A stretch of 64,000 nt of DNA from Flavobacteriales bacterium (lineage in GTDB: Bacteria; Bacteroidota; Bacteroidia; Flavobacteriales_E; Vicingaceae), in the NCBI GenBank assembly GCA_905339165.1, contig CAJPFH010000004.1, forward strand, positions 1-64,000. Direction: 5' to 3'. The notes beneath the pieces were generated by a model. The model worked only from the letters and a program-made list of their open reading frames with translations. It was not told the DNA's origin and made no database searches. This document shows, in pieces, positions 40,800 to 57,478 of this stretch (within the stretch, counting starts at the first letter, position 1; every line of letters starts with the position of its first letter). The position numbers were made by a program, and so were the translations under genes.

Positions 40800-41942
40800 T
40801 TACGTTTTAGGTTTAATGGTATTGTAAATGCCTCTAAATGGCTTCAAAAAAGGGTATTTATCGAAATATGATTTTTTTTCTGTTTTAAAATCGAAATGCG
40901 ACCTGGGTGGTAAGGCCATGTATTTTTCAAACTCTGCCTCACTCAGGTTTAATTTCCGCAGCACAAAATTTTTATCCTCTTTCAACTGCTGTGTATCGTA
41001 AATAGGCTGCTTTAATTCTTCCAAGGCTTCTTCTCTGCTTATCTGGCCCGAGCAAATCAAGGTAGATAAATGTGCTTTTCGTTTATCTACCTTAAATTTT
41101 TCGGGCAAAATATAGCCTTGGTAAAAACGTGTCCACACCGATTCGTAGTGCTTTCCTCCATAATCTTTCCAGTTTAGTTCTTTTGCCAAAAGGGCCTTTA
41201 CTTCCGTTTTATTATAATGTATATAGTTGAGCAGTTGCACTGATTCTACCTGCATGGCCAAACGGTATAATCGTTTTTTAGCCATGGTAAGCAAGGGAAA
41301 TGTGTTGAGGGGAATGGTTCCGAAATGTTTTTGAATATCGATGATATTTTCTGCATCTTGTTTATTAAACACCCAAGCCTTCGGCAAAATGCCTTCGGTA
41401 ACGATATTGTATCCGCTTAAAAAATAATTGATTTTATTCTCGGCAGCCAAACGATATAAAGTAGCGACTATGGCATGGTCGGTAATTACTTCAATATCTA
41501 TAACCGATGCCTTTAAATAGGCCAATTGCAAATCTTTAAATTCTTCCCAATTGATAACGTAAGTGTATAAATCAAATTCTAATATTTTTACAATATTATC
41601 TATATTTTTAACGGCTAATTCGGAGTTCCATCCGTTATCGAAATGCACTACCAGTGGCCTCAATCCTTCTTTTTTAGCCAGGTACGCTAAATACGAACTA
41701 TCTACTCCTCCGCTTAGTCCTAATACACAATCGTATTTTTTGTTGGCTCCGTCTTTCTTTATTTGAGCTATTTTACTATTAAAAAAATCGATTCCTTCCT
41801 GCCCTTTTTTTACATACTTCTTTTCTTTTTCAAAGTACTCGTAATAATAATGGCAAACCCCCTTTTCATCAAATGTAATATTGGGGTCGGCCAGGTTATC
41901 CATTACCGTTTTGGTGCATTGCTGAAATGTAGAGTGAGTCAT
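40800..41942 (-). CDS. N-acetyl sugar amidotransferase (WbpG/PseA-like)
   Basis: 380-residue PP-loop ATPase-type enzyme that makes acetamidino groups on amino sugars. The PP-loop SGGVDSS is at 77-83, with ITDHAIVATLYRLAAENKI and LSGYNIVTEGILPKAW downstream. The family N-terminus usually has two CxxC pairs; here only Cys9 and Cys30 remain (QQCTKTVMD, GVCHYYYEY). Partner HisH/HisF-like genes are not in the window. Acetamidino sugars include legionaminic-type acids, which fits the NeuB module on the other arm (inference). Confidence 0.85.
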   Translation of the reverse strand: MTHSTFQQCTKTVMDNLADPNITFDEKGVCHYYYEYFEKEKKYVKKGQEGIDFFNSKIAQIKKDGANKKYDCVLGLSGGVDSSYLAYLAKKEGLRPLVVHFDNGWNSELAVKNIDNIVKILEFDLYTYVINWEEFKDLQLAYLKASVIDIEVITDHAIVATLYRLAAENKINYFLSGYNIVTEGILPKAWVFNKQDAENIIDIQKHFGTIPLNTFPLLTMAKKRLYRLAMQVESVQLLNYIHYNKTEVKALLAKELNWKDYGGKHYESVWTRFYQGYILPEKFKVDKRKAHLSTLICSGQISREEALEELKQPIYDTQQLKEDKNFVLRKLNLSEAEFEKYMALPPRSHFDFKTEKKSYFDKYPFLKPFRGIYNTIKPKT

Positions 41943-43085: not shown

Positions 43086-43093
43086 TATTTTTG
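43086..43093 (+). promoter_or_regulatory. -7 element of the plus polysaccharide arm
   Basis: TATTTTTG is a perfect TAnnTTTG. It overlaps the upstream TTG at 43091, so the kinase start must be the ATG at 43127, 33 bases downstream. Confidence 0.65.
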
Positions 43094-43126
43094 TGTGCAA
43101 TTGAAGAACGAGCACGAACGATTAAA

Positions 43127-45526
43127 ATGAATCAGCCCAATCATCAGAAAAACATAATAGAAGGTTTTGACTTTATTGCTTTAGGTGCCCGAATGTTAAA
43201 GTTTTGGTACCTCTTTGTTATTTCCTTGGGCATTGGTTGGCTTTTTTCTTACTACACGCTTAGGTACAGTGTACCTGTTTACAAAACCTATTGCAAAGTG
43301 TTGCTGAAAGACGAATATTCTTCTTGGGGGCAAGAATATTTCATTAAGGGTATGGAACTGGTGAGTGCCCGCAACCGCATTTCGAACGAAGTGGGAATTA
43401 TCAGTTCCTACAATTTAATGAGGGCGGTTTTAAACCATGTAGATTTTAAGGTTTTTTACTACGACATTGGCCGGATTAAAGCTACCGAACTTTACAAAAA
43501 TTCTCCTTTTACAGTAGAAATAGACACCTCCTTTAAAGAGTACAGAGCCGCCTACTATTACCTGAAATTTTTGAACGAAAAGGAATTTGTTTTATCGAAT
43601 AAAGAAAATGAATTTAATAACAAAGACAAGCATCGCTTCGGTGAATCTTTTACCCTAAACGGCATTACCGTAACCGTACAAATAACACCCTATTACAAGA
43701 AAGGCGAAAGCGAAGAAAAATTATTCTCATTTAGTATAAACGACCTCAATTCGATGGCGAAGGTTTACCAAAATAGGGTAATGATTGAAACCGACCCACC
43801 TGAATCGTCTATTCTAAAATTTACCTTAAACGGTACTGAAATAGCGAAAGAATCTGATTTTTTAAATGCCCTGATGCAGGAGTTTATTCGGGTGGGCCTG
43901 AAAGAAAATAACGAAATAGCCTCCAATACCATCACCTTTGTAGATATGCAACTGAGCGAAGTGGCCGACACCCTTTTTGATACCGAAGGGAAAATGGAAA
44001 ACTTTAAAGAAAAAATAAATGCACAAAAATTGGAACTCAATAGCAAAGGCCTTATCCCTACTTCTACCGATTTAGAACAAGAATTTTTAAAAGTACAATT
44101 CGATTATAACTACTATTCTCAAACCCTAAACAACCTTAAAAATAACCGTATCGACCAAATTATAATTCCTTCGGTCATTGATATAAACGTGCAAGACCCT
44201 ATCTACACCTCTATACTTCAACTTTCCAGACTGTACACCCAAAAAACCAGCCTCGAAAAACAAATCAGCGATAGCAGCATGGCCTACAAAATACTGATAG
44301 AAGAACTGCAAATTACCAAAGATATCCTTTACGCCAACATTTCCTCTCGCCTCGAAAAAAAGAAATTTGAACTGGAACAACTTACCGAGCAGCTTGTAAA
44401 CATTGATGGAAAACTTTCACAACTGCCCTCGGCCGAAGCCAAATTTATTCGCATAGAAAGACTCTTTAAATTAAACAGCGATTTTTATAATTACCTGCTG
44501 CAAAAAAGAAGCGAAGCTGCACTAGCTCAGGCATCGAATGTGCCTAAGGCTAAAATTTTAGAACCTTCCAGCGATTATACCGTTTCGTATGTGGGGCCCT
44601 TTCCTAAAAATATTTACACCTTTAATTTGGCGGTTGCCTTTTTAATTCCTTTTCTACTTGTTTTTTTTATTTTTCTGTTCAATAATAAGATTTTTGAAAA
44701 AGCCGATATCTCTTCTGTTACTAAAATACCTATTATCGGAACCATTGGACATACCCCCGATGCCGACAACTTAGTATTGGCAAACAAACCCAAGTCGGTG
44801 GTAGCCGAATCGTTCCGAAACATTCGCACCAACATCAATTACATTACCAAACAAAAAGAATCGTTTTGCATACTCATTACTTCTTCCATTAGTGGCGAAG
44901 GAAAAACATTCTGCTCTATGAATTTGGCTTTAGCCTATTCCCTTTCCGGAAAAAAAACCTTGTTGGTAGGAGCCGATCTTCGCAAACCTAAAATTTATAA
45001 CGACTTTAAACTTAAAAATACAGTAGGGCTTTCTACTTTCCTAATTGGAAAAGCAAGTTTCGAAAACATCCTTCAGCAAACTGCACACAGCCATTTGCAA
45101 ATTGTATCTTCCGGACCGGTTCCTCCCAATCCTTCGGAATTAATTGAGACTGAAAAAATGGCCGAATTTATTTCTCTTGCAAAAAAAGAATTTGAGGTGT
45201 TAATTATAGATACCCCGCCCGTAGGTTTGGTTACCGATGGAGTAATTTTATCGCAATACTCAGATGTAAACCTGTATATTGTAAGGCAACGATACACCCG
45301 CAAAAGCAATTTAGAACTGATTAACGAATTTTACGAAAACAAAAAAATTGAACACATTGGCATTGTGGTAAACGATTTAAAAGAACAACGCATAGGCTAT
45401 GGCTACGGATATGGGTACGGGTACGGATATGGTTACGGATATGGATACGGAGGAGGCTATTACACCGATGAAGAAAAAAAGAAAAAACCCATTGAATTGC
45501 TGATAAAAAAAATTAGAAAAAGCTAA
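43127..45526 (+). CDS. wzc: Polysaccharide co-polymerase/tyrosine autokinase (Wzc-like)
   Basis: 799-residue BY-kinase controlling chain length and export. Membrane helix 1 is at about 26-46, followed by a Wzz domain, a coiled coil (about 280-430), a GNVR segment and helix 2 near 498-522. The kinase domain has Walker A ISGEGKT (588-594, Lys593), Walker A' LLVGADLRKPK and Walker B LIIDTPPVGLV. The tail is nine Gly-Tyr pairs plus GGGYY (757-770), the tyrosine cluster that is autophosphorylated in trans. No Wza-like outer-membrane exporter is in the window. The start is set by the promoter element upstream. Confidence 0.94.
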   Translation: MNQPNHQKNIIEGFDFIALGARMLKFWYLFVISLGIGWLFSYYTLRYSVPVYKTYCKVLLKDEYSSWGQEYFIKGMELVSARNRISNEVGIISSYNLMRAVLNHVDFKVFYYDIGRIKATELYKNSPFTVEIDTSFKEYRAAYYYLKFLNEKEFVLSNKENEFNNKDKHRFGESFTLNGITVTVQITPYYKKGESEEKLFSFSINDLNSMAKVYQNRVMIETDPPESSILKFTLNGTEIAKESDFLNALMQEFIRVGLKENNEIASNTITFVDMQLSEVADTLFDTEGKMENFKEKINAQKLELNSKGLIPTSTDLEQEFLKVQFDYNYYSQTLNNLKNNRIDQIIIPSVIDINVQDPIYTSILQLSRLYTQKTSLEKQISDSSMAYKILIEELQITKDILYANISSRLEKKKFELEQLTEQLVNIDGKLSQLPSAEAKFIRIERLFKLNSDFYNYLLQKRSEAALAQASNVPKAKILEPSSDYTVSYVGPFPKNIYTFNLAVAFLIPFLLVFFIFLFNNKIFEKADISSVTKIPIIGTIGHTPDADNLVLANKPKSVVAESFRNIRTNINYITKQKESFCILITSSISGEGKTFCSMNLALAYSLSGKKTLLVGADLRKPKIYNDFKLKNTVGLSTFLIGKASFENILQQTAHSHLQIVSSGPVPPNPSELIETEKMAEFISLAKKEFEVLIIDTPPVGLVTDGVILSQYSDVNLYIVRQRYTRKSNLELINEFYENKKIEHIGIVVNDLKEQRIGYGYGYGYGYGYGYGYGYGGGYYTDEEKKKKPIELLIKKIRKS
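45395..45448 (+). repeat. Hexanucleotide-like tandem repeat coding for (Gly-Tyr)9 in Wzc
   Basis: Nine copies of a GGN-TAY hexamer with varied third bases (ggc, gga, ggg, ggt; tat, tac), followed by GGA GGA GGC TAT TAC. Copy-number change would alter tyrosine number without shifting the frame. Confidence 0.9.
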
Positions 45527-46038: not shown

Positions 46039-47712
46039 ATGTATTCTCCATTAAAAATAATAGCCGAAAGTGCCTTTAATCATAACGGAAATTTCGAATA
46101 TTTAAAAGAATTAGCCCTCTCTTCAAAAAATTCAGGTGCCGATTATTTTACCGTTCAGGTAATGAATGTAGACGCATTTTGTGTAAAAGAATACGAAAAA
46201 TACACCCTGTACAAAAACACGGAGTTTTCTTCTGCTCAGTGGATAGAATTATTCGGTTTTTGCAAACAAAACAACATTAATGTTATACCCTGTACTCTAG
46301 AGGAAGCTTCTTTTAAATTATGTTACGATTACGGATTTCGATTCATTAAAATACATGCCACAGACATTACAAACGAGCCTTTTTTAAAACTGATTGCTAA
46401 ATACGATGATGTAAAAGTGATTTTGGAAACACAATGTGCCACGCTTTTTGAAATTCATTTTGCCATAGAAATACTAGGAGCTAACAAAATAGAAGCTCTG
46501 TTCTCCGGCTTTAGTAACTACCCTACCGAAGTAGAAGATTTAAACCTAAACGTTTTAGATTTTTTTAAATCAAAATTCGATTTTAAACTAGGTTATGCCG
46601 ACCACTCGCTTGATACGGCTAATATTCCCCTCATGCTATTGGCAAAAGGCTGTACTTATCTCGAAAAACATATTACACTTAGCCGAAATAATAGAAATTT
46701 CGACTATCAAGTTTCATTGTACCCACAAGAGTTTAGTTCAATGGTATCTACTATTCGGCATTACGAATTAGCGTTGGGTAACGGAATAAAACACCCTACC
46801 CAAAACGAGCATAAATTCAGAAACATTATGTACAAAAAAGTAGTTTCGGGCAACACTTTAAAAAGAGCCGATAAAGGAAGCTTCTTTATAGAAAATGAAA
46901 TTCTAAAATTTGATAAAAACAAGGTGGTAGTAGCCTTAATTGCACGGCTAAAATCTAAAAGATTAAAAGAAAAAGTGCTAAAACCTTTTCATACAAACGA
47001 GCTCATTGTTGACTTATACAGCAAGCTCTCTCTATCCAACAAATTTAAAACCATTTTAGCCACCTCTGATTTGGTTGAAGATAAAGCACTGCTTGACTTA
47101 TTCCAAAAAAAAGGATTTTATACTTATGCGGGAGATGCCATTTCTGTAATAGACCGAATGCTGCACTTAGCCTATAAAGAAAAAGCCTCAGCCATTTTCA
47201 GAGTAACGGGTGATAACCCCTTTACCGATGTTGCATTAATGAACGAAATGGTAGATTTGCTCAACCAAAATAACCTCGATTATGTAAAAGTAAACAATGT
47301 ACACTTTGGCGTTGGAGCCGAACTCTTTTCTACAAAATACCTTTGGCAATTGTATCTTAAACTTGAAACCACCGAATTTTCAGAATACCTAACTTGGTAC
47401 GTATTAAACGACCAAGAAGTTAAAATGGGTTCTATTGATTTAGTGGTTGAAAACAACACAGGTTTGGTAAATCTAAGTGTAGATTTGCAAGAAGATTACG
47501 ACCGATGTGTACGCCTTCTGAAAAAAATCAATAAAACTGATTTTTCTCAAATTTCACTTTCCGATATTTATGCCAACACAAAAGAATTAGAAAAAGTAGA
47601 TGAAACGAAAGAAATTAAATTACCACTAGGCCACACCATTAAACTAAAAGATTATTTGCAGCAGTTTAATGACAAAAAATATATTATCAGAAAACCATAT
47701 ATTATAAAATGA
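46039..47712 (+). CDS. NeuB-like synthase fused to cytidylyltransferase-like domain
   Basis: 557 residues joining two enzyme folds. Residues about 1-285 resemble the NeuB TIM barrel (IIAESAFNHNG, LGYADHSLD, YLEKHITLSRNN); here DHKAS is replaced by FDYQVS. Residues about 295-515 resemble SpsF/NeuA-type cytidylyltransferases (VVVALIARLKSKRLKEKVL, FRVTGDNPFTD, LSVDLQEDYDR). Together this would condense PEP with a sugar and activate the product with CTP. No SAF domain follows the barrel. It overlaps the second NeuB gene by 4 bases. Fusion of these activities is unusual; altered residues leave activity of each half open. Confidence 0.83.
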   Translation: MYSPLKIIAESAFNHNGNFEYLKELALSSKNSGADYFTVQVMNVDAFCVKEYEKYTLYKNTEFSSAQWIELFGFCKQNNINVIPCTLEEASFKLCYDYGFRFIKIHATDITNEPFLKLIAKYDDVKVILETQCATLFEIHFAIEILGANKIEALFSGFSNYPTEVEDLNLNVLDFFKSKFDFKLGYADHSLDTANIPLMLLAKGCTYLEKHITLSRNNRNFDYQVSLYPQEFSSMVSTIRHYELALGNGIKHPTQNEHKFRNIMYKKVVSGNTLKRADKGSFFIENEILKFDKNKVVVALIARLKSKRLKEKVLKPFHTNELIVDLYSKLSLSNKFKTILATSDLVEDKALLDLFQKKGFYTYAGDAISVIDRMLHLAYKEKASAIFRVTGDNPFTDVALMNEMVDLLNQNNLDYVKVNNVHFGVGAELFSTKYLWQLYLKLETTEFSEYLTWYVLNDQEVKMGSIDLVVENNTGLVNLSVDLQEDYDRCVRLLKKINKTDFSQISLSDIYANTKELEKVDETKEIKLPLGHTIKLKDYLQQFNDKKYIIRKPYIIK

Positions 47713-48739
47713 CCTACATTATAGGAGAAATAGGCCAAAACCACAACGGTTCGGTAGATTTAGCAAAACTACTGGTAGAAGTGGCTTCACGCCCTGTTCG
47801 TGAAGAATTGTTTGGAATAGACCTAAAACCCATGGATGCCGTAAAACTTACTAAACGAGATTTAAACGAAGAACTCTCGGCATCGCAAATGGCTGCACCA
47901 TACAACAGTCCGCACTCTTTTGGAAAAACCTACGGAGAACACCGTGCCTTTTTAGAACTGAATGAGGAACAACACTTTGAAATATATCTACACGCCAAAG
48001 CACAAGGGTTAGACTTTGTAGAAACCCTATGTGCCAAAGGCTGCCTTAGCATTTTTAAATACTTTATCCCCGATAAACTAAAAGTAGCCAGCCGAGATTT
48101 AACAAATTTACCCCTGCTTACAGCTCTTGCCGAAACCAAGGTTCCCATTATTTTATCTACCGGAATGGCTGGAAAAAAAGAACTAGACGAAGCGTTAGAA
48201 ATCATCTCAAAATACCACTCTCACATTTCTATTTTGCACTGTGTTTCGCAATACCCTACTCACCCTCTCAACACCAACCTGCTTACCATAACCTATTTGC
48301 AAAAAAATTATCCGCAGTACACCATAGGCTATTCCGACCATACCATAGGCATTGCTGCTCCGGTAGCTGCGGTTGCCATGGGAGCCAAAATCATTGAAAA
48401 ACATATTACCCTCGACCGTAAAATGAAAGGTACCGACCAGGCCGGTTCTCTTGGAATAGACGGCATACACCGAATGGTACGCGATATACGCGTAATGGAA
48501 ATGTCATTGGGAAAAGAAGAATTATTTATTGACGAAGCCGTAAAAAATGCCAAAGTAAAATTGGAACGCTCCATTGCTACTCTCCGTAAAATGAGTGCAG
48601 GAGAAACCATTACCGAAAAAGACATACACCTGCTCTCTCCGGGAGATGGCTATAAATGGAACGAAAAAGAATCCCTCATTGGGAAAAAACTACGTTGCGA
48701 TTTGCCCGCCAATGAAATTATTTACAAAAAAGATATTCA

Positions 48740-48743
<4 letters not shown>
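47709..48743 (+). CDS. neuB: NeuB-family sialic/nonulosonic acid synthase
   Basis: 344 residues with a NeuB barrel (IIGEIGQNHNGSVDLAKLL, ILHCVSQYPTHPLN, IGYSDHTIGI, IIEKHITLDRKMKGTDQAGSL) and C-terminal SAF/antifreeze-like domain (about 280-344, RSIATLRKMSAGETITEKDI). It condenses PEP with an N-acetylated or neutral hexose (-6-phosphate) to a nine-carbon acid. It is full length and the better candidate for the active synthase. It overlaps both neighbours by 4 bases. Which sugar is made (Neu5Ac, legionaminic, pseudaminic or KDN) is not decided; no epimerase gene is in the window. Confidence 0.92.
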
Positions 48744-49802: not shown

Positions 49803-51587
49803 TTGAATCATCGTCTTTTCATACTGTTTCCGGAACTACACCTAAGTGAAATAAATGCATTGGCAGAAAAATACAAGTGTTCTGAAATTATCAATTTTAC
49901 CAACAACACTAGGGAGCAACAATATTCTATCCCCACCTTACAAGTTCATCAAATAGAAAATGTTGAACAAATTATACAACAAACCATAAACGAATACACC
50001 CAATTTGTAGCCACCTTTTCTCAAACCACTTTATCTAAAAATAAAACCATACGCCATTTAAAAATAAACAAACTCCCTGTTTACTGGCTCACACCTTTCT
50101 CTGTCAAGCATCCTTATAATCATTGGGCTTACAATGTTTTTCTGCTCAAAAATTATCTTTCTTTTCATACCCAACCAAATGAAAAGTATTTTGTTGCACT
50201 CCCCAACCAACTTAAGTACATTGCCCCGTTTATAAACGAATTACTTAAAATCTACTCTTTCGAAATTATTTTTTCTATTAATGGAAAACAAAAAAATTAC
50301 GAGCAAACTATTTTTCACTTCTTCAAAAATCACCTTAAAAATATTTGGCGTATTGGGCAAATAAAACCAAATAAGGAAATTGAAAATAAAAATCAAACCA
50401 TTCTATTTCTCAATACGCCACAAGAATTTTCTTACTTAAAAAAGGTGGAGTCGGTTGCCCAACCTTATTTTAATAATGTAGGATTAAATACCGTACACTT
50501 TTGCTATTTAGATTGGATAAAAAGCAAAACCATACATTCTGGTTTTTACAAGGCCAAACCAAGTTTTTTGCTACTACTAAAAATAGCCTATTCCTCTCTT
50601 TGCATTAAATATAAGCTAAAAAAATTTCGATGTACTATTGAAGTAAATAAAGTACAATTTAATACAGAAATTATATTGAAAGAAATTGAATCTATACTAA
50701 TAGAAAAATCGCATTACCTCTACTCTTACCAGTGGCTAATCAATTATTTTAAACAAAGCCCCCAATTAAAAGCCGTATTTTACGAAGACGAGTTTTATAT
50801 TTTCGGACGCATTATTTCGGCTGCCAAAAAACAAAGTGCAGCAACACACTTTACTTGTTATGGCATTCAGCATGGTATGTTCTCCGATTTTCACACCGTT
50901 TACAACATTTCCGATAAAGAAATAAAACCCGATGCCCAAAATAATGAGAATGGCTTACCTCTTCCCGATTTTTTTATTACTTGGGGAAATTACTTTACTT
51001 CTCATTTTTTAAAACATAACTCCCTACCCCATGGTTTTGTAAAAGAACTGGGAAACCCCATTTACCTTTTCAAGCACTCAAAAAACAAATACGCAGAAAA
51101 CGGCCACACAAAAAAATCTTTTACCTTTTTGTATTGCCTTACCTCCGAAATTCTTTTCGAAAAAGAATTACCTATCGTAAATAATATACTGCAAAAATAC
51201 CAAGGGGCAACCCTCATTATTCGCTGCCACCCCCAATTTGTTTTTAATGTTTCTGCACACCATTTTCATTCTTCAGTAAGTATTAAAAATTCAGAAAACG
51301 TATCTTTAACAGATGATTTTAATCTATCGGATATAATACTTTGCAGTGCCCACTCTACCGTATTTTTAGATGCTTTGGCATACAACAAAAAGGTAATTCG
51401 GCTTAAAACCAATATTACCGATAGCTCTATGAATTACCAAAGCACCGATTGTTTAACCTTACACGCCAACAACGAAGTGCCTTTTTTAGAAAAAAAACAA
51501 GAAGAAACCATCGCAAAAAACCCATTTCTACAAAATGAAACTACACAGTGGACTCGGTTTATAAATGAAATGAAAAACCATGCTTAA
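49803..51587 (+). CDS. Capsule-type GT-B protein, candidate nonulosonic acid transferase
   Basis: 594 residues with no ATG before the middle of the frame, so TTG at 49803, two bases after the KdsC stop, is the likely start. The C-terminal half has GT-B capsule features: YGIQHGMFSDF, FFITWGNYFTSHFL, ELGNPIYLF, LIIRCHPQF and DIILCSAHSTVFLDALAYNKKVI, resembling poly-/sialyl- and glycerophospho-transferase folds (HxP and S/T-x-x-D/E motifs). The N-terminal half is divergent. Position at the end of the NeuB module makes transfer of the CMP-sugar a fair guess. I do not recognise a named family with certainty. Confidence 0.72.
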   Translation: MNHRLFILFPELHLSEINALAEKYKCSEIINFTNNTREQQYSIPTLQVHQIENVEQIIQQTINEYTQFVATFSQTTLSKNKTIRHLKINKLPVYWLTPFSVKHPYNHWAYNVFLLKNYLSFHTQPNEKYFVALPNQLKYIAPFINELLKIYSFEIIFSINGKQKNYEQTIFHFFKNHLKNIWRIGQIKPNKEIENKNQTILFLNTPQEFSYLKKVESVAQPYFNNVGLNTVHFCYLDWIKSKTIHSGFYKAKPSFLLLLKIAYSSLCIKYKLKKFRCTIEVNKVQFNTEIILKEIESILIEKSHYLYSYQWLINYFKQSPQLKAVFYEDEFYIFGRIISAAKKQSAATHFTCYGIQHGMFSDFHTVYNISDKEIKPDAQNNENGLPLPDFFITWGNYFTSHFLKHNSLPHGFVKELGNPIYLFKHSKNKYAENGHTKKSFTFLYCLTSEILFEKELPIVNNILQKYQGATLIIRCHPQFVFNVSAHHFHSSVSIKNSENVSLTDDFNLSDIILCSAHSTVFLDALAYNKKVIRLKTNITDSSMNYQSTDCLTLHANNEVPFLEKKQEETIAKNPFLQNETTQWTRFINEMKNHA

Positions 51588-51663
51588 GAAATTATTTTCG
51601 CACTCTTTACTTTATTTTGTTGGGCATCAAATTCCTAAGCTAGTAAATTAATTACTCTTACCT
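51580..51663 (+). pseudogene. 5' remnant of a Wzx-type flippase gene
   Basis: ATG at 51580 overlaps the upstream stop by 8 bases, the same coupling seen elsewhere in this operon. The 23 codons that follow read MLKKLFSHSLLYFVG...IPKLVN, then TAA at 51649 and LLLP. This aligns codon for codon with the start of the intact flippase (MLKKIVSQSFLYAVG...IPKFVN-LLVLP); the stop replaces a Leu codon (TTA to TAA). After Pro (51661-51663) the similarity ends. Nucleotides differ at many third positions, so this is the start of a different flippase, not a recent copy. Confidence 0.8.
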
Positions 51664-51982
51664 TCATATTAAAAGATTCTTCAGATTTTAGGTAATATTT
51701 TTAATCCTTTCAAGATAATTTAAAAATGATATTATTGCCCTCTATGTTTATCCCATTAGGATTATCCACTCTGAAGTTATTCCCATACATACAAGCGTCA
51801 CCTCCAAAGTGTTTAAATAACCATTCAAACATATAAAATAACTATTTTTGCTAGAACAAAATGGGAAAGTATTTATAACTACATTCTGCTTTAATAAAAA
51901 TAAATTTGATTACGAATATCAATAGTATGAGTAGAAAAAGATTGGAAAAAATGATTTGTTCAAAATACTTTTTTAAGAAAAT
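51664..51982 (+). other. AT-rich non-coding spacer next to flippase remnant
   Basis: 319 bases with stops in all frames, no hairpin terminator, RNA gene or further flippase codons recognised. It lies between the broken flippase start and the SGNH hydrolase gene and is likely part of the incoming DNA. Confidence 0.6.
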
Positions 51983-52678
51983 ATGAATAATCAAAGAATT
52001 AGAGTTGTGTTTCTAACAGACTCATTAAGCCTTCCTAGAGATATACCTGAAAAAGTTTCTTATGAAGAAACATTTGTTTATCTGCTTAAAAAAGAATATC
52101 CTAATATAGAATTTATTCAATTTGCCTATGGAGGTGCAACCATATCTGATTTAAGGAATCAAGCTGATTATTTAAAAAGCTTCTCCCCTAATGTACTAAT
52201 TCTTCAAGCAGGAATAGTAGATTGTGCTCCAAGAACCACCACAAGATTTGAATCTGATTTTATTTCTAGAATTCCTTTATTGTCAAAATTAATTTTTCGA
52301 ATGTTAAGAAATAATGCCTCCTCTATTAGGAAAATAAGGAGAATTACATACACAAATCCACGTTCTTTTGAAGAAAATCTTAAAAAAATAAATTCTATGT
52401 TTAATGGTTCAAGAGTGTATGCAATAGGCATTTTACCTGCAAGTTTAAACTATGAAAGGAAGGTTCCTGGAATTACAAGTAATATTCTACTTTTTAACGA
52501 AAAATTAAAATCCGTATTTAGAAATAATTTCATTGACACTTCTGATTTTGACGAAAGTTACGTGATGTCTGATTTTTTTCATCTTAATAAAAAAGGCCAC
52601 CTGTCAATCTACAAAAAATTGAACTCTATTATAAATGTTAACTCACAAATTTATAGTGGCAAAATATCTACTGAATAA
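51983..52678 (+). CDS. SGNH/GDSL-type hydrolase-like protein
   Basis: 231 residues with SGNH blocks: nucleophile Ser14 in FLTDSLS, block II Gly in FAYGGATISDL, block III GIVD (the usual Asn replaced by Val79), block V Asp197-x-x-His200 (SDFFHLNKKGH). Such enzymes add or remove acyl groups on glycans. There is no signal peptide. The gene and its flanks are clearly more AT-rich than neighbours (14 G/C in the 60 bases at 52261-52320 by hand count), pointing to recent transfer. It may be an O-acyl-modifying enzyme of the polysaccharide; activity is uncertain because of the Asn loss. Confidence 0.78.
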   Translation: MNNQRIRVVFLTDSLSLPRDIPEKVSYEETFVYLLKKEYPNIEFIQFAYGGATISDLRNQADYLKSFSPNVLILQAGIVDCAPRTTTRFESDFISRIPLLSKLIFRMLRNNASSIRKIRRITYTNPRSFEENLKKINSMFNGSRVYAIGILPASLNYERKVPGITSNILLFNEKLKSVFRNNFIDTSDFDESYVMSDFFHLNKKGHLSIYKKLNSIINVNSQIYSGKISTE

Positions 52679-52787
52679 ATACAATGAACTTATATAATTA
52701 ACTAAACCTTTTACCAAGTGAAATATTATGCATCGTTGATTTTTGAAATATTTCAGAACGATTAAGTATAAATGCAACTACTGGTTC

Positions 52788-54209
52788 ATGCTAAAAAAAA
52801 TTGTTTCTCAAAGTTTCTTATATGCAGTTGGCCCTCAAATACCAAAGTTTGTCAACTTATTAGTATTACCTATAATTACTCAATACTTAACTCCGTTAGA
52901 TTATGGAGTGTATGGTACTCTATTGGCTTATATGGGTCTTATGCAAGGTTTAAAATCATTGGGGTTTGATGTATTATTAGTAAATACTTTCTTTAAACGA
53001 AAAAACTGGAAAAGTTATTGGAGTAGGTATATAGGAGGCTTATATACTTATAACCTTTTTTTTGCTATTCCTTATACCCTGTTACTCTATTTTTTTATTC
53101 CAAAGGAAGCTAGAGAAAATTTATGGTTACTCATAGCCATTATTGTTATTCCTATCTTATTATTCGATGTTACAAGGATGGTAGGAGGCAGATATTTTCA
53201 ACTAAATCAAAAACCAAGATACATTGCTTTAGTATCTGCAACAGTGGGCGTTGTAACCATTTTTATCAACCTATACACCATTGCATACCTGAAAATAGGC
53301 TATTGGGGGTGGTTTATTTCTTTAGCAGCAGGTTCCTTTCTCTCCTTTTGTTTTTACGCTGTTCCTCTATACCTAAAAGAAAAATTAATTCCCATTTTAA
53401 GCACCAATAAAAATTTTTGGAAAAAGAGCTTAAAAGTAGGTTTACCTACAATACCTCATAATTACTCTACCTATCTACTGAATAGTTCAGACCGACTAAT
53501 GATGGACCAACTGAAAACTCCCATACAACAAATAGGAATATATAATATGGCATACGTTTTTGGAGGTTATTTAGAAATGTTTGGAACAGCAGTTGGAATG
53601 GCCGTTGGGCCTTATTATACCAAGCTACATTCGCAAAAAAATGAAGTAGCCGATAATGCAGTTAAATCGTTGACATTCTTTTTGCAAATTAGTTTTATAG
53701 TTCTTTGTGTGCTTATTTCACTATGGGTAAAAGAAATATTTTACCTATTGATTAAAAATAGTGAATTACAACAGGCAAGCAGCATCGCCATTATAATTAT
53801 TATGGGTTATGCTTACCGCCCTATGTATTGGGCTGCTGGCACTAAAATTTTATTTTACGAACACACCAATAAATTATGGAGAATCTCCTTTATTGCAGGA
53901 GTATTAAATGTAGTTCTCAATTTTATTTTTATACCCATTTATGGCATTTACGCAGCAGCTATCACTACACTAATTAGCTTAATGTACCTTGGAGTTTCTC
54001 CTTATTTTATTAAAGAATTTAAAGAAAAAAACACCGAAAAGTTTTACCCTGTTTTGTGGATGGGAGCCATTGCTGTTTTAACACTACTCCTTTATGCTGC
54101 TAAAGATATTCATATTGGCGTAAAAGCCATTTTTACCTTAATCATTTTAGCCGCTTATCTTGTGTATCTGATAAAAAACAAAAAAACTCTTAATGCCATT
54201 AATGTTTAA
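52788..54209 (+). CDS. wzx: Oligosaccharide flippase (Wzx-like)
   Basis: 473 residues with 12-14 membrane helices, MVF/MATE-type polysaccharide transporter: FVNLLVLPIITQYLTPLDYGVYGTL, VGLPTIPHNYSTYLLNSSDRLMM, GIYNMAYVFGGYLEMF. It moves lipid-linked repeat units across the inner membrane for the Wzy-like polymerase on the other arm. ATG 52788 is chosen because its N-terminus aligns with the flippase remnant and with flippases generally; the TTG at 52743 adds 15 atypical residues. It is the last gene of the plus arm, with no terminator seen. Confidence 0.92.
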   Translation: MLKKIVSQSFLYAVGPQIPKFVNLLVLPIITQYLTPLDYGVYGTLLAYMGLMQGLKSLGFDVLLVNTFFKRKNWKSYWSRYIGGLYTYNLFFAIPYTLLLYFFIPKEARENLWLLIAIIVIPILLFDVTRMVGGRYFQLNQKPRYIALVSATVGVVTIFINLYTIAYLKIGYWGWFISLAAGSFLSFCFYAVPLYLKEKLIPILSTNKNFWKKSLKVGLPTIPHNYSTYLLNSSDRLMMDQLKTPIQQIGIYNMAYVFGGYLEMFGTAVGMAVGPYYTKLHSQKNEVADNAVKSLTFFLQISFIVLCVLISLWVKEIFYLLIKNSELQQASSIAIIIIMGYAYRPMYWAAGTKILFYEHTNKLWRISFIAGVLNVVLNFIFIPIYGIYAAAITTLISLMYLGVSPYFIKEFKEKNTEKFYPVLWMGAIAVLTLLLYAAKDIHIGVKAIFTLIILAAYLVYLIKNKKTLNAINV

Positions 54210-54415: not shown

Positions 54416-57400
54416 ATGAAAAAGCTTTACATTGCCATCCTGCTTTCCTCATCGTTTACCGCATTTGCTCAAACAGGGCCGGGTGGTGTAGGAAATTCGA
54501 GCAACAACATTATTTGGTTAGATGCCAATAAGCTTACAGGCTTAAACCATGGCGACCTTGTAACCACATGGACCGATGTTTCCGGAAACGGCAACGATTT
54601 TATCCAGGCTACAGCCGGTTACAAACCTACGTATAGAACCAGCAGTACCTTTTTGTCTAATGTGCCTCATCTTCAGTTTCAATCTAAATACATGGAATTA
54701 GGCCCCACAGCAGCCTTAAATTCAAGCCAAATCAGTAGTATTGTAGTTTGTGCCCCGCGTACCTCAAACCCTACTTGTGCCATCATGCGTTCTTCCTATT
54801 CTTCCGGAGCAGGTGCAGGTTCTAACCAATATTGGGGGCATTATTTCAATGGCTCAGGTACCCCTTCTCATGTTTCACACACTAGAAATTCGGCAGGAAT
54901 AGGTATTGCTTCTACGGGAACTCCTTATTCTACAGCAAAAAAAATAATGGGTTTTAATTGGAATGGAGTTACCGGTAATTTCAGAGGGTATGAAAACAAC
55001 AATTTGTTAACCAATGTAAACACCGCCACATCAACACCTAGCGGACACTTGCTTACTCGTTTAGGCTCTAACACCACCGGAGGCCCGGGCTTATTGTTAG
55101 ATGGCTTTATTGCAGAGGTTATTGTATTTAACACTCAACTTAACTCTGCTCAAAACAATATTATTCAAAACTACCTTTCCAGAAAATATAACATAGCCAT
55201 TGCTAACGATTACTTTGCTTACGATGCTACACACGGATACCTGATAGGTGTGGGGCAAGAAGCCGATGGAGCGAGTACTTCTGCCAAAGGAGATGGTATA
55301 CTTACCTTAGATGCCGGCACCTTAAACAATGGCGATTATGTGATAGTAGGTCATAACAACACCAGTTTAACCAACCTTTCGGGAAACGTACCCACCCAAA
55401 ACCCTGTAATTACACGTATCACCCGTACCTGGCGGGCTGATATAACCGGCAGCCCTGGTGCCGTAGATTTAACCTTTGAACTAAATACCACAGGACTGGA
55501 TCCCAACACCAATTACTATCTGCTACTCGATGCCGATGGAGATTTTTCTTCTGGTGCCACCTCAATTGCACACAGCAGCTACAATGGCATTACCAATATC
55601 GTTAGCTTTAGTGGAGTAACTATTCCCGATGGCTCGTACATAAGCATTGCAGCCGAAAATAAATACATAATTACAAAAGCCAGCGGTAATTGGACTAATC
55701 CCGCTACTTGGAATTGTAATTGTGTTCCTGGCTATGGGCAAAGTGCCCGAATTTTAAGCGGACATACCGTTAATCTCAACTCTATTAACTGCTACGTTGA
55801 CTCTTTAATTATTGATGCCGGTGGCACATTAAACTCAGTGGTTAATTCTTACTTTTTGAACATGCAAGGTAATTTATACGTAAATGGCAGCGTAAACGGA
55901 ACCATTAGTTTAAACTGTATAGGCGTAAACGACCCACAGGTACTAAACAATAATTCTGGAACACCTATCGATTTGTATTACTTCTATGGCTCTAATACCA
56001 GCTTAGTTACTTTTAACAACGGAGACTTTAACATACATAGCAGAGCTAGAAATAACAATGGTTTTATAGAAGCTTCGCCTTCTGCCAATGTTACCTTTGT
56101 TTCAAATGCTTCTTATACTTGTATTATACAACCCATTACCACAGGATTTGGCTTTTTAGGCGATTTTGTAATGCAACGCTACATTGCGGCCTCTATAGAC
56201 GATTGGTCTGATATGGCTTCTCCGGTTCAGTTTACTACCATAGCTGACTGGGATGATGAATTATACATGAGCGGTGTTTTTGGAAATGACGGAAACGCAG
56301 GGCCTTTCAAATCAGTTTGGCAATTCGATAATCCTTCTCAGCAATTTGTAGCCGTTACCTCTACGGCAACCCCCATAAACCCGGGGTATGGAATAGAAAT
56401 GTGGCTGGCCGATACCATGGGAGCTTGGTATGGTGGCACATTCGACTCGAGAGGAACCCCCAATTCTGGCAACTTATCTATCCCCTCGGGTAATTTAGGC
56501 TCTACTCCCGGAGATTGGAATTTACTCGGAAACCCTTACCAATCATGGATTAAGTGGAATACAGTTACCAAAAGCAATTTAAAAAATGAGGTTTGGTTTT
56601 ATGACCATAACATAAGCAACTACACCTTAGTTTCCGGCAGTAATGTGCTCATTCCTGCCTCGCAAGGTTTTTGGGCAGAAAATACTGGAAGCACAGCTAG
56701 CGCTACTTTTACCGAAAATTCTAAAAATACGGTAAGTTCTTCCAGTTTCTTTTACCGAACAGGTGGATTACTCTCCGATTCAGGTGAATTTGTTTTGAAA
56801 CTGAAAGGCTTAAATGCTCCCTATGCTCACCATGCCTACTTTAGATTAAACGAAAACGCCACAGAATCCTATAATCCGGAATTAGATGCCCGGTTTTTGA
56901 AAAGTAAAAATAAACAGGCACACAACATCACCATCAAAACAAAGGATCATAAAGTAGTTTCTTTGAAAACGGTAAATCCTAATCAAGAAATTACCGTGGC
57001 TCCTTTAGAAATAAAGGTTTCTGAGAACGGTATTTACCAAGTAGATGCATTACATCTAGACTATGTGCAAGACCATTTTAACTGCATATTGCTTAAAAAC
57101 AAAACTACCGGTGAAACTATTGATATTAAAGCTACTCCTTATTTTACTTTTGAAGTAACCGATATAAATAAAACTTATCCTTTCGAACTGATTTTTAGTA
57201 ATTCTTTGAATGCTTGTAGAACTACTTCGGTAACAGATAACAGCTCGGTAACTTTTACTCCGATAGAAAACAACATTGTAGTTAAAACAGACTTTGCAGA
57301 TGATGAAAATGTATATATCTCTGTTTCCAATATATTAGGACAAGAAATAGTACCCGCTAAGGCAGTAAATACTTCGGCAAAATACCACACTATTACAACT

Positions 57401-57478
57401 GAAGGATTAAGCGGAATATATATCATCACCGTAAAATCGTCTTTAGGGTTGCATAGCCAAAAGATTATCCTATACTAA
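54416..57478 (+). CDS. Large secreted T9SS type A protein with LamG-like domain
   Basis: 1020-residue surface or secreted protein. A signal peptide is at 1-20 (MKKLYIAILL...FAQ); GTG at 54410 is an alternative start two codons earlier. Residues about 28-230 are a concanavalin/LamG-like module (WLDANKLTGL, TTWTDVSGNGNDFIQ, GFIAEVIVFN). Next comes a segment like those following LamG in Bacteroidota adhesins (YLIGVGQEADGAS, IVGHNNTSLTNL), then Ser/Asn-rich beta-strand regions. The C-terminus (about 940-1020) is a T9SS type A sorting domain (VYISVSNILGQEIV, LSGIYIITV, terminal QKIILY), although the usual PNP motif is replaced by PIENN. Likely a cell-surface adhesin. Confidence 0.86.
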   Translation: MKKLYIAILLSSSFTAFAQTGPGGVGNSSNNIIWLDANKLTGLNHGDLVTTWTDVSGNGNDFIQATAGYKPTYRTSSTFLSNVPHLQFQSKYMELGPTAALNSSQISSIVVCAPRTSNPTCAIMRSSYSSGAGAGSNQYWGHYFNGSGTPSHVSHTRNSAGIGIASTGTPYSTAKKIMGFNWNGVTGNFRGYENNNLLTNVNTATSTPSGHLLTRLGSNTTGGPGLLLDGFIAEVIVFNTQLNSAQNNIIQNYLSRKYNIAIANDYFAYDATHGYLIGVGQEADGASTSAKGDGILTLDAGTLNNGDYVIVGHNNTSLTNLSGNVPTQNPVITRITRTWRADITGSPGAVDLTFELNTTGLDPNTNYYLLLDADGDFSSGATSIAHSSYNGITNIVSFSGVTIPDGSYISIAAENKYIITKASGNWTNPATWNCNCVPGYGQSARILSGHTVNLNSINCYVDSLIIDAGGTLNSVVNSYFLNMQGNLYVNGSVNGTISLNCIGVNDPQVLNNNSGTPIDLYYFYGSNTSLVTFNNGDFNIHSRARNNNGFIEASPSANVTFVSNASYTCIIQPITTGFGFLGDFVMQRYIAASIDDWSDMASPVQFTTIADWDDELYMSGVFGNDGNAGPFKSVWQFDNPSQQFVAVTSTATPINPGYGIEMWLADTMGAWYGGTFDSRGTPNSGNLSIPSGNLGSTPGDWNLLGNPYQSWIKWNTVTKSNLKNEVWFYDHNISNYTLVSGSNVLIPASQGFWAENTGSTASATFTENSKNTVSSSSFFYRTGGLLSDSGEFVLKLKGLNAPYAHHAYFRLNENATESYNPELDARFLKSKNKQAHNITIKTKDHKVVSLKTVNPNQEITVAPLEIKVSENGIYQVDALHLDYVQDHFNCILLKNKTTGETIDIKATPYFTFEVTDINKTYPFELIFSNSLNACRTTSVTDNSSVTFTPIENNIVVKTDFADDENVYISVSNILGQEIVPAKAVNTSAKYHTITTEGLSGIYIITVKSSLGLHSQKIILY

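Follow-up and report, generated by a model that had tools for sequence, protein, structure and literature searches.

The polysaccharide locus and its flippase stub

The window, a 64,000-nucleotide stretch of DNA from a member of the Flavobacteriales, carries a polysaccharide locus. The features relevant here are listed in Table 1, with reference to G001, a congeneric genome, and to genomes of related genera. The protein encoded before the slot matched no Pfam or NCBIfam family and, from its gene context, we take it to be a glycosyltransferase-like polysaccharide protein. It diverges fast, being 78-79% identical between species whose RelA and SHMT proteins are 98-99% identical. The final codons of this upstream gene double as the start of the lost flippase. 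According to the initial annotation, an ATG here overlaps the upstream stop codon by 8 bases; we found its coordinates to be exact.

Table 1. Features between the upstream gene and the intact flippase gene, with positions in the window.
Feature	Positions	Strand	Remarks
Gene for 594-aa protein before the slot	49803-51587	+	Open reading frame; relatives in G001, G021, G044, G045, G055 and G058
8-base overlap, ATGCTTAA, of upstream stop and lost flippase start	51580-51587	+	Stop codon at 51585-51587
Decayed 5' stub of Wzx-type flippase gene	51580-51663	+	28 recognisable codons with in-frame stop at codon 24; profile and score tests; also in G001
Non-coding stretch, not alignable between the two congeneric species	51664-51772		30-nt identity profile drops to 9-19 of 30
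Intergenic stretch ahead of SGNH gene	51773-51972		155/200 aligned bases identical in G001
SGNH/GDSL hydrolase gene, 231 aa (putative insert)	51983-52678	+	PF13472, E=5.8e-8
Spacer between SGNH and flippase genes, 109 bases	52679-52787		Moderately conserved in G001
Intact Wzx-type flippase gene, 473 aa	52788-54209	+	PF01943, E=2.3e-13

Other genes lie further upstream. A WbuX-type N-acetyl sugar amidotransferase is encoded on the opposite strand (40800-41942), and Exosortase X (NF046081; 42469-42999, minus strand) adjoins the polysaccharide locus. Positions 43091-45526 encode what reads as a Wzz/tyrosine-kinase-like protein with a C-terminal GYGYGY repeat, also seen in the homologue from G021. 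In a 557-aa protein (46039-47712), NeuB (PF03102) and cytidylyltransferase (PF02348) domains are fused; the gene that follows (47709-48743) is also of the NeuB family and includes a SAF domain.

The stub translates as MLKKLFSHSLLYFVGHQIPKLVN*LLLP, the beginning of a Wzx-type flippase. Its frame is open for 23 codons from the ATG and ends with TAA where the intact flippase has TTA; likeness extends through codon 28, and none was found beyond. The two ATG codons are 1208 bases apart. These observations bear out the initial annotation, which described a 23-codon frame aligning with the N-terminus of the intact flippase 1.2 kb downstream, a TAA in place of TTA, and loss of similarity five codons later. 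Between stub and intact flippase 16 of 23 residues are identical, giving a BLOSUM62 score of 76. The next-best score, among approximately 127,860 six-frame positions in the window, was 25. A seven-flippase profile also matched the stub frame, with E values, from a small search set, of 7.7e-11 in this genome and 1.1e-8 in G001. The remnant reading was originally made to depend on such matches, and flippases do match. Another DNA match in this genome, at C12:11867-11894, falls inside a secretin-like gene and is due to chance.

Could the stub reflect chance resemblance, or a sequencing error in an otherwise intact gene? The first 8 bases are indeed forced by the end of the upstream gene. This explanation is refuted by the gap between scores of 76 and 25, by the stub in another species' genome, and by the loss of everything past codon 28, which is more than one changed base; we give it practically no weight. 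The segment has above-chance, in-frame likeness to flippases, the rest of the gene has been lost, and relatives have an intact gene at the same place. Coding potential has gone from the region, where flippase similarity ceases and stop codons are species-specific. The stub is confirmed as a real and clear, but ordinary, gene-swap remnant. Support is thereby given to the original proposal of a flippase remnant at a recombination junction.

The SGNH/GDSL hydrolase passes the Pfam gathering score for PF13472 (33.9 bits versus 32.9) and is 90% identical in G001 and 50% identical in G055. By reading, the translation of this putative hydrolase contains TDSLS close to its N-terminus and DFFHLN close to its C-terminus, which may supply the catalytic Ser, Asp and His. 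The intact flippase scores 50.6 bits with PF01943 (Polysacc_synt), compared to a gathering score of 28.2, and is 95% identical in G001, 83% in G044 (over 330 aa) and 64% in G055. Its ATG is likely the one at 52788, with the listed open reading frame start at 52743 being a TTG extension. A search of 51664-51982 and 52679-52787 for a hidden remainder of the flippase, or for any neighbouring protein, gave nothing above chance. Between 51500 and 52900 no terminators were found, and sigma-70-like promoter sites occurred only at the level of shuffled sequence; Bacteroidota-type promoters fall outside this model. No terminal repeats or IS elements were recognised flanking the cargo. We also considered a mosaic flippase, with a donor 5' part and a resident 3' part, and rejected it; the identity profile against relatives had no trustworthy breakpoint.

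The stub in a second species

In a named genome collection, the only match to the locus was that of G001 (MAG_49, Flavobacteriales). Gene order is the same in this genome: upstream gene, stub, non-coding stretch, SGNH gene and flippase gene. The G001 stub, at the same place, reads MLKKLFSHSLLYSIKPQIPC*. Its frame stops at codon 21, leaving 20 codons, and codon 24 aligns as ATT. Since the stops differ, the TAA in the window represents later decay and not the ancestral lesion. Hence, the initial view that this TAA broke the gene is not supported. The lesion common to both species is truncation, with loss of the rest of the flippase gene. Because stub and layout are found in both species, the event is most simply placed before the species split.

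The non-coding stretch immediately after the stub probably holds independent deletions or the original junction. For the intergenic stretch that follows, a search for an origin elsewhere returned, beyond G001, only short chance-level DNA matches among 46 genomes of the order.

A functional short leader peptide, or a translational coupling frame ahead of the SGNH gene, was also considered. The first 12 codons differ between species at only two synonymous sites, as such a frame might predict. Conversely, the two frames have 23 and 20 codons and different C-termini; past the shared stop codon, the stubs are identical at 42 of 52 positions, compared with 155 of 200 in the intergenic stretch that precedes the SGNH gene (Fisher p 0.71). 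Drift at the neighbouring intergenic rate argues against a leader peptide, as judged from two species. Thus, neither the conserved length nor the purifying selection expected of a leader peptide was seen in this two-species comparison. Furthermore, the frame matches the N-termini of flippases, and no comparable frame precedes the SGNH gene of G055. We regard a functional peptide, which the initial annotation had itself named as the competing possibility, as very improbable.

Occupants of the slot in related genera

Seven genomes of the order have both the upstream gene and this flippase family. In G045 and G058, which belong to the same family as the window genome, a full flippase gene directly follows the upstream gene, with the same 8-base overlap, ATGCTTAG. 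This is the arrangement that the initial annotation had proposed looking for in relatives. In G021 the slot is occupied by a hexapeptide acetyltransferase gene with no scar, and the flippase gene overlaps the acetyltransferase gene by ATGCTTAA. The ATGCTTAG/ATGCTTAA overlap thus recurs at the intact flippases of G045, G058 and G021, and it is also found at a stub in G044. In G055 an SGNH gene sits in the slot, tightly packed and with no stub. An SGNH gene also immediately precedes a flippase of the same kind in G406, from another family; the remaining SGNH relatives found have other neighbours.

The locus of G044 contains, in order, the upstream gene, a 185-nt copy of the flippase 5' end, a hairpin with a T-run, an MBOAT gene (PF03062), a gene encoding 311 aa and the flippase gene. 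The 185-nt copy is 97.3% identical to the intact flippase of the same genome. G044 is a young version of the same type of scar with different inserted genes, and this fresh example from a related genus makes the scar in the window more informative. The G044 locus sits on a 7.6-kb MAG contig with a suspicious in-frame fusion further on. There (L034, G044:C255, 4511-7273) the flippase frame continues past approximately residue 330 into U32-type peptidase-like sequence, giving a frame of 920 aa. This is probably a misassembly in a fragmented MAG, and may be a real fusion. A short frame, YIPTKLIKAKKIHNA*, at 4471-4518 of L034 ends in the flippase start and, by eye, resembles the C-terminus of the G021 acetyltransferase, GGVPAKLIRMKSSNA*. 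This likeness suggests that an earlier cargo gene may once have occupied the G044 slot.

After the flippase gene in the window, positions 54416-57478 encode a large, secreted-looking protein. Its counterpart, 36% identical, lies directly after the flippase gene of G055, so the order SGNH, flippase, secreted protein is common to both genera. HisH/HisF-like partners follow the flippase gene in G021, G045 and G058; tblastn searches of the window with the G021 proteins did not find them.

Since the junction took different cargo in related genera (acetyltransferase, SGNH, or MBOAT and its partner), it is a slot for sugar-modifying genes. Stubs of this kind reveal where, and in what order, genes entered the polysaccharide locus. 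We tentatively suggest, at somewhat less than even odds, that the first ~60 codons of the flippase gene, or the junction before them, are a recurrent landing site for polysaccharide-modifying genes, entered by recombination with the flippase start. If so, surface sugar decorations would be exchanged as 'cargo plus flippase' modules, and the flippase 5' stubs left behind would be scars that can be dated. With two scars that differ in age and cargo at a single junction, the conserved flippase start becomes testable as an anchor for swapping genes that decorate surface sugars.

Replacement, duplication and comparison with known systems

The genes that flank the slot differ in their history. The flippases of this genus and G044 are 83% identical over 330 aa, but RelA is only 61%, SHMT 76% and the upstream protein 28% identical. 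In the flippase tree this genus groups with G044 (99/98); in the tree of the upstream gene it groups with G021 (97/97). The swapped groupings were rejected by AU tests: with flippase data, grouping with G021 gave p 1.5e-13 and, with upstream-gene data, grouping with G044 gave p 0.002. The conflict could also reflect an independent flippase exchange that had nothing to do with the scar.

The stub itself sits poorly with its own flippase. In tblastn comparisons the window stub is 75, 71 and 71% identical to flippases of other genomes and 68% identical to that of its own genome, the worst of seven. For the G001 stub, the lowest matches are the flippases of both genomes of this genus. Because only 84 nt survive, the origin of the stub is weakly resolved.

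These data bear on a partial duplication, whereby the present flippase is still the resident one; its 5' end would have been duplicated as the SGNH gene inserted, and the left copy decayed. Precisely this geometry, with copies 97.3% identical, is found in G044, and an AU test on the 84 nt alone does not reject the stubs as sisters of their own flippases (p 0.116). Conversely, p falls to 0.033 when full-length flippase rows are included. Both stubs have MLKKLFSHSLLY and a TCT serine codon, whereas the flippase of this genus has MLKKIVS with AGT or AGC, and the flippase history differs from that of the upstream gene. We therefore consider duplication unlikely, though well ahead of the leader peptide. 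Tree conflict and stub placement together favour replacement over 5' duplication of the resident flippase by about two to one. Hence, the initial claim that a different flippase was replaced by a cassette of SGNH and flippase genes is moderately supported, by the tree conflict, by the adjacency of SGNH and flippase genes in G055 and G406, and by the failure of the stub to group with its own flippase; the 28 codons do not settle the matter against a 5' duplication.

Our preferred explanation, to which we assign a probability of roughly two in three, is that the start of an older flippase gene was left behind when a segment with SGNH and flippase genes was inserted, and that the incoming flippase took over. 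The older gene would once have directly followed the upstream gene, with 8 bases in common, as in G045 and G058 today. Before the species split, DNA with an SGNH hydrolase gene and a flippase gene would have inserted at its start, reducing it to its first codons, and the incoming or a hybrid flippase would have assumed its role. The stub would then have decayed with no detectable constraint, acquiring different stops and deletions in each species. A plausible route is homology-facilitated illegitimate recombination, anchored in the strongly conserved 5' sequence of the flippase gene and with a non-homologous join on the other side. Alternatively, integration may have occurred by a single crossover. 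Either route would place the cargo between a truncated 5' copy, upstream, and a full copy, downstream. In G044 the geometry fits the first route, in which one join is homologous and the other has little or no homology. In the window the junction has decayed; positions 51664-51772 are unalignable and hold no recognisable protein remnant. As a consequence, no direct junction or anchor can be read there, and we infer the mechanism.

Comparable remnants are known. In Salmonella O-antigen clusters, wzy remnants have been degraded by different serial deletions in related groups (PMC3715488). There, as proposed here, the function of a processing gene in a polysaccharide cluster was taken over, and a remnant of the old gene survives. 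In Salmonella the new wzy is found at another genomic site or was exchanged with neighbours, with IS elements involved (PMC3715488). Conversely, in our case the remnant is the 5' end of a flippase gene, immediately followed by the cargo and a new flippase copy, and no IS element was identified. For Vibrio cholerae, a process resembling homology-facilitated illegitimate recombination was proposed to displace T6SS effector-immunity modules sequentially (PMC5361080). In both systems the proposed anchor is a conserved stretch, new cargo enters, and part of the displaced gene set stays alongside. The V. cholerae anchor lies upstream and the displaced immunity genes are retained, whereas in our case the start of the flippase gene would be the anchor and the stub is a dead gene fragment. 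Reports of homology-facilitated illegitimate recombination concern three competent species and E. coli conjugation, the latter with low efficiency (PMC3240628). Its homologous and illegitimate joins would similarly yield a truncated 5' copy, then the cargo, then a complete copy. That process is experimental, whereas here it is inferred from anatomy alone, with the original junction decayed. Gene remnants of this kind were thus already known; what is added here is one junction with several types of cargo and two scars of different age.
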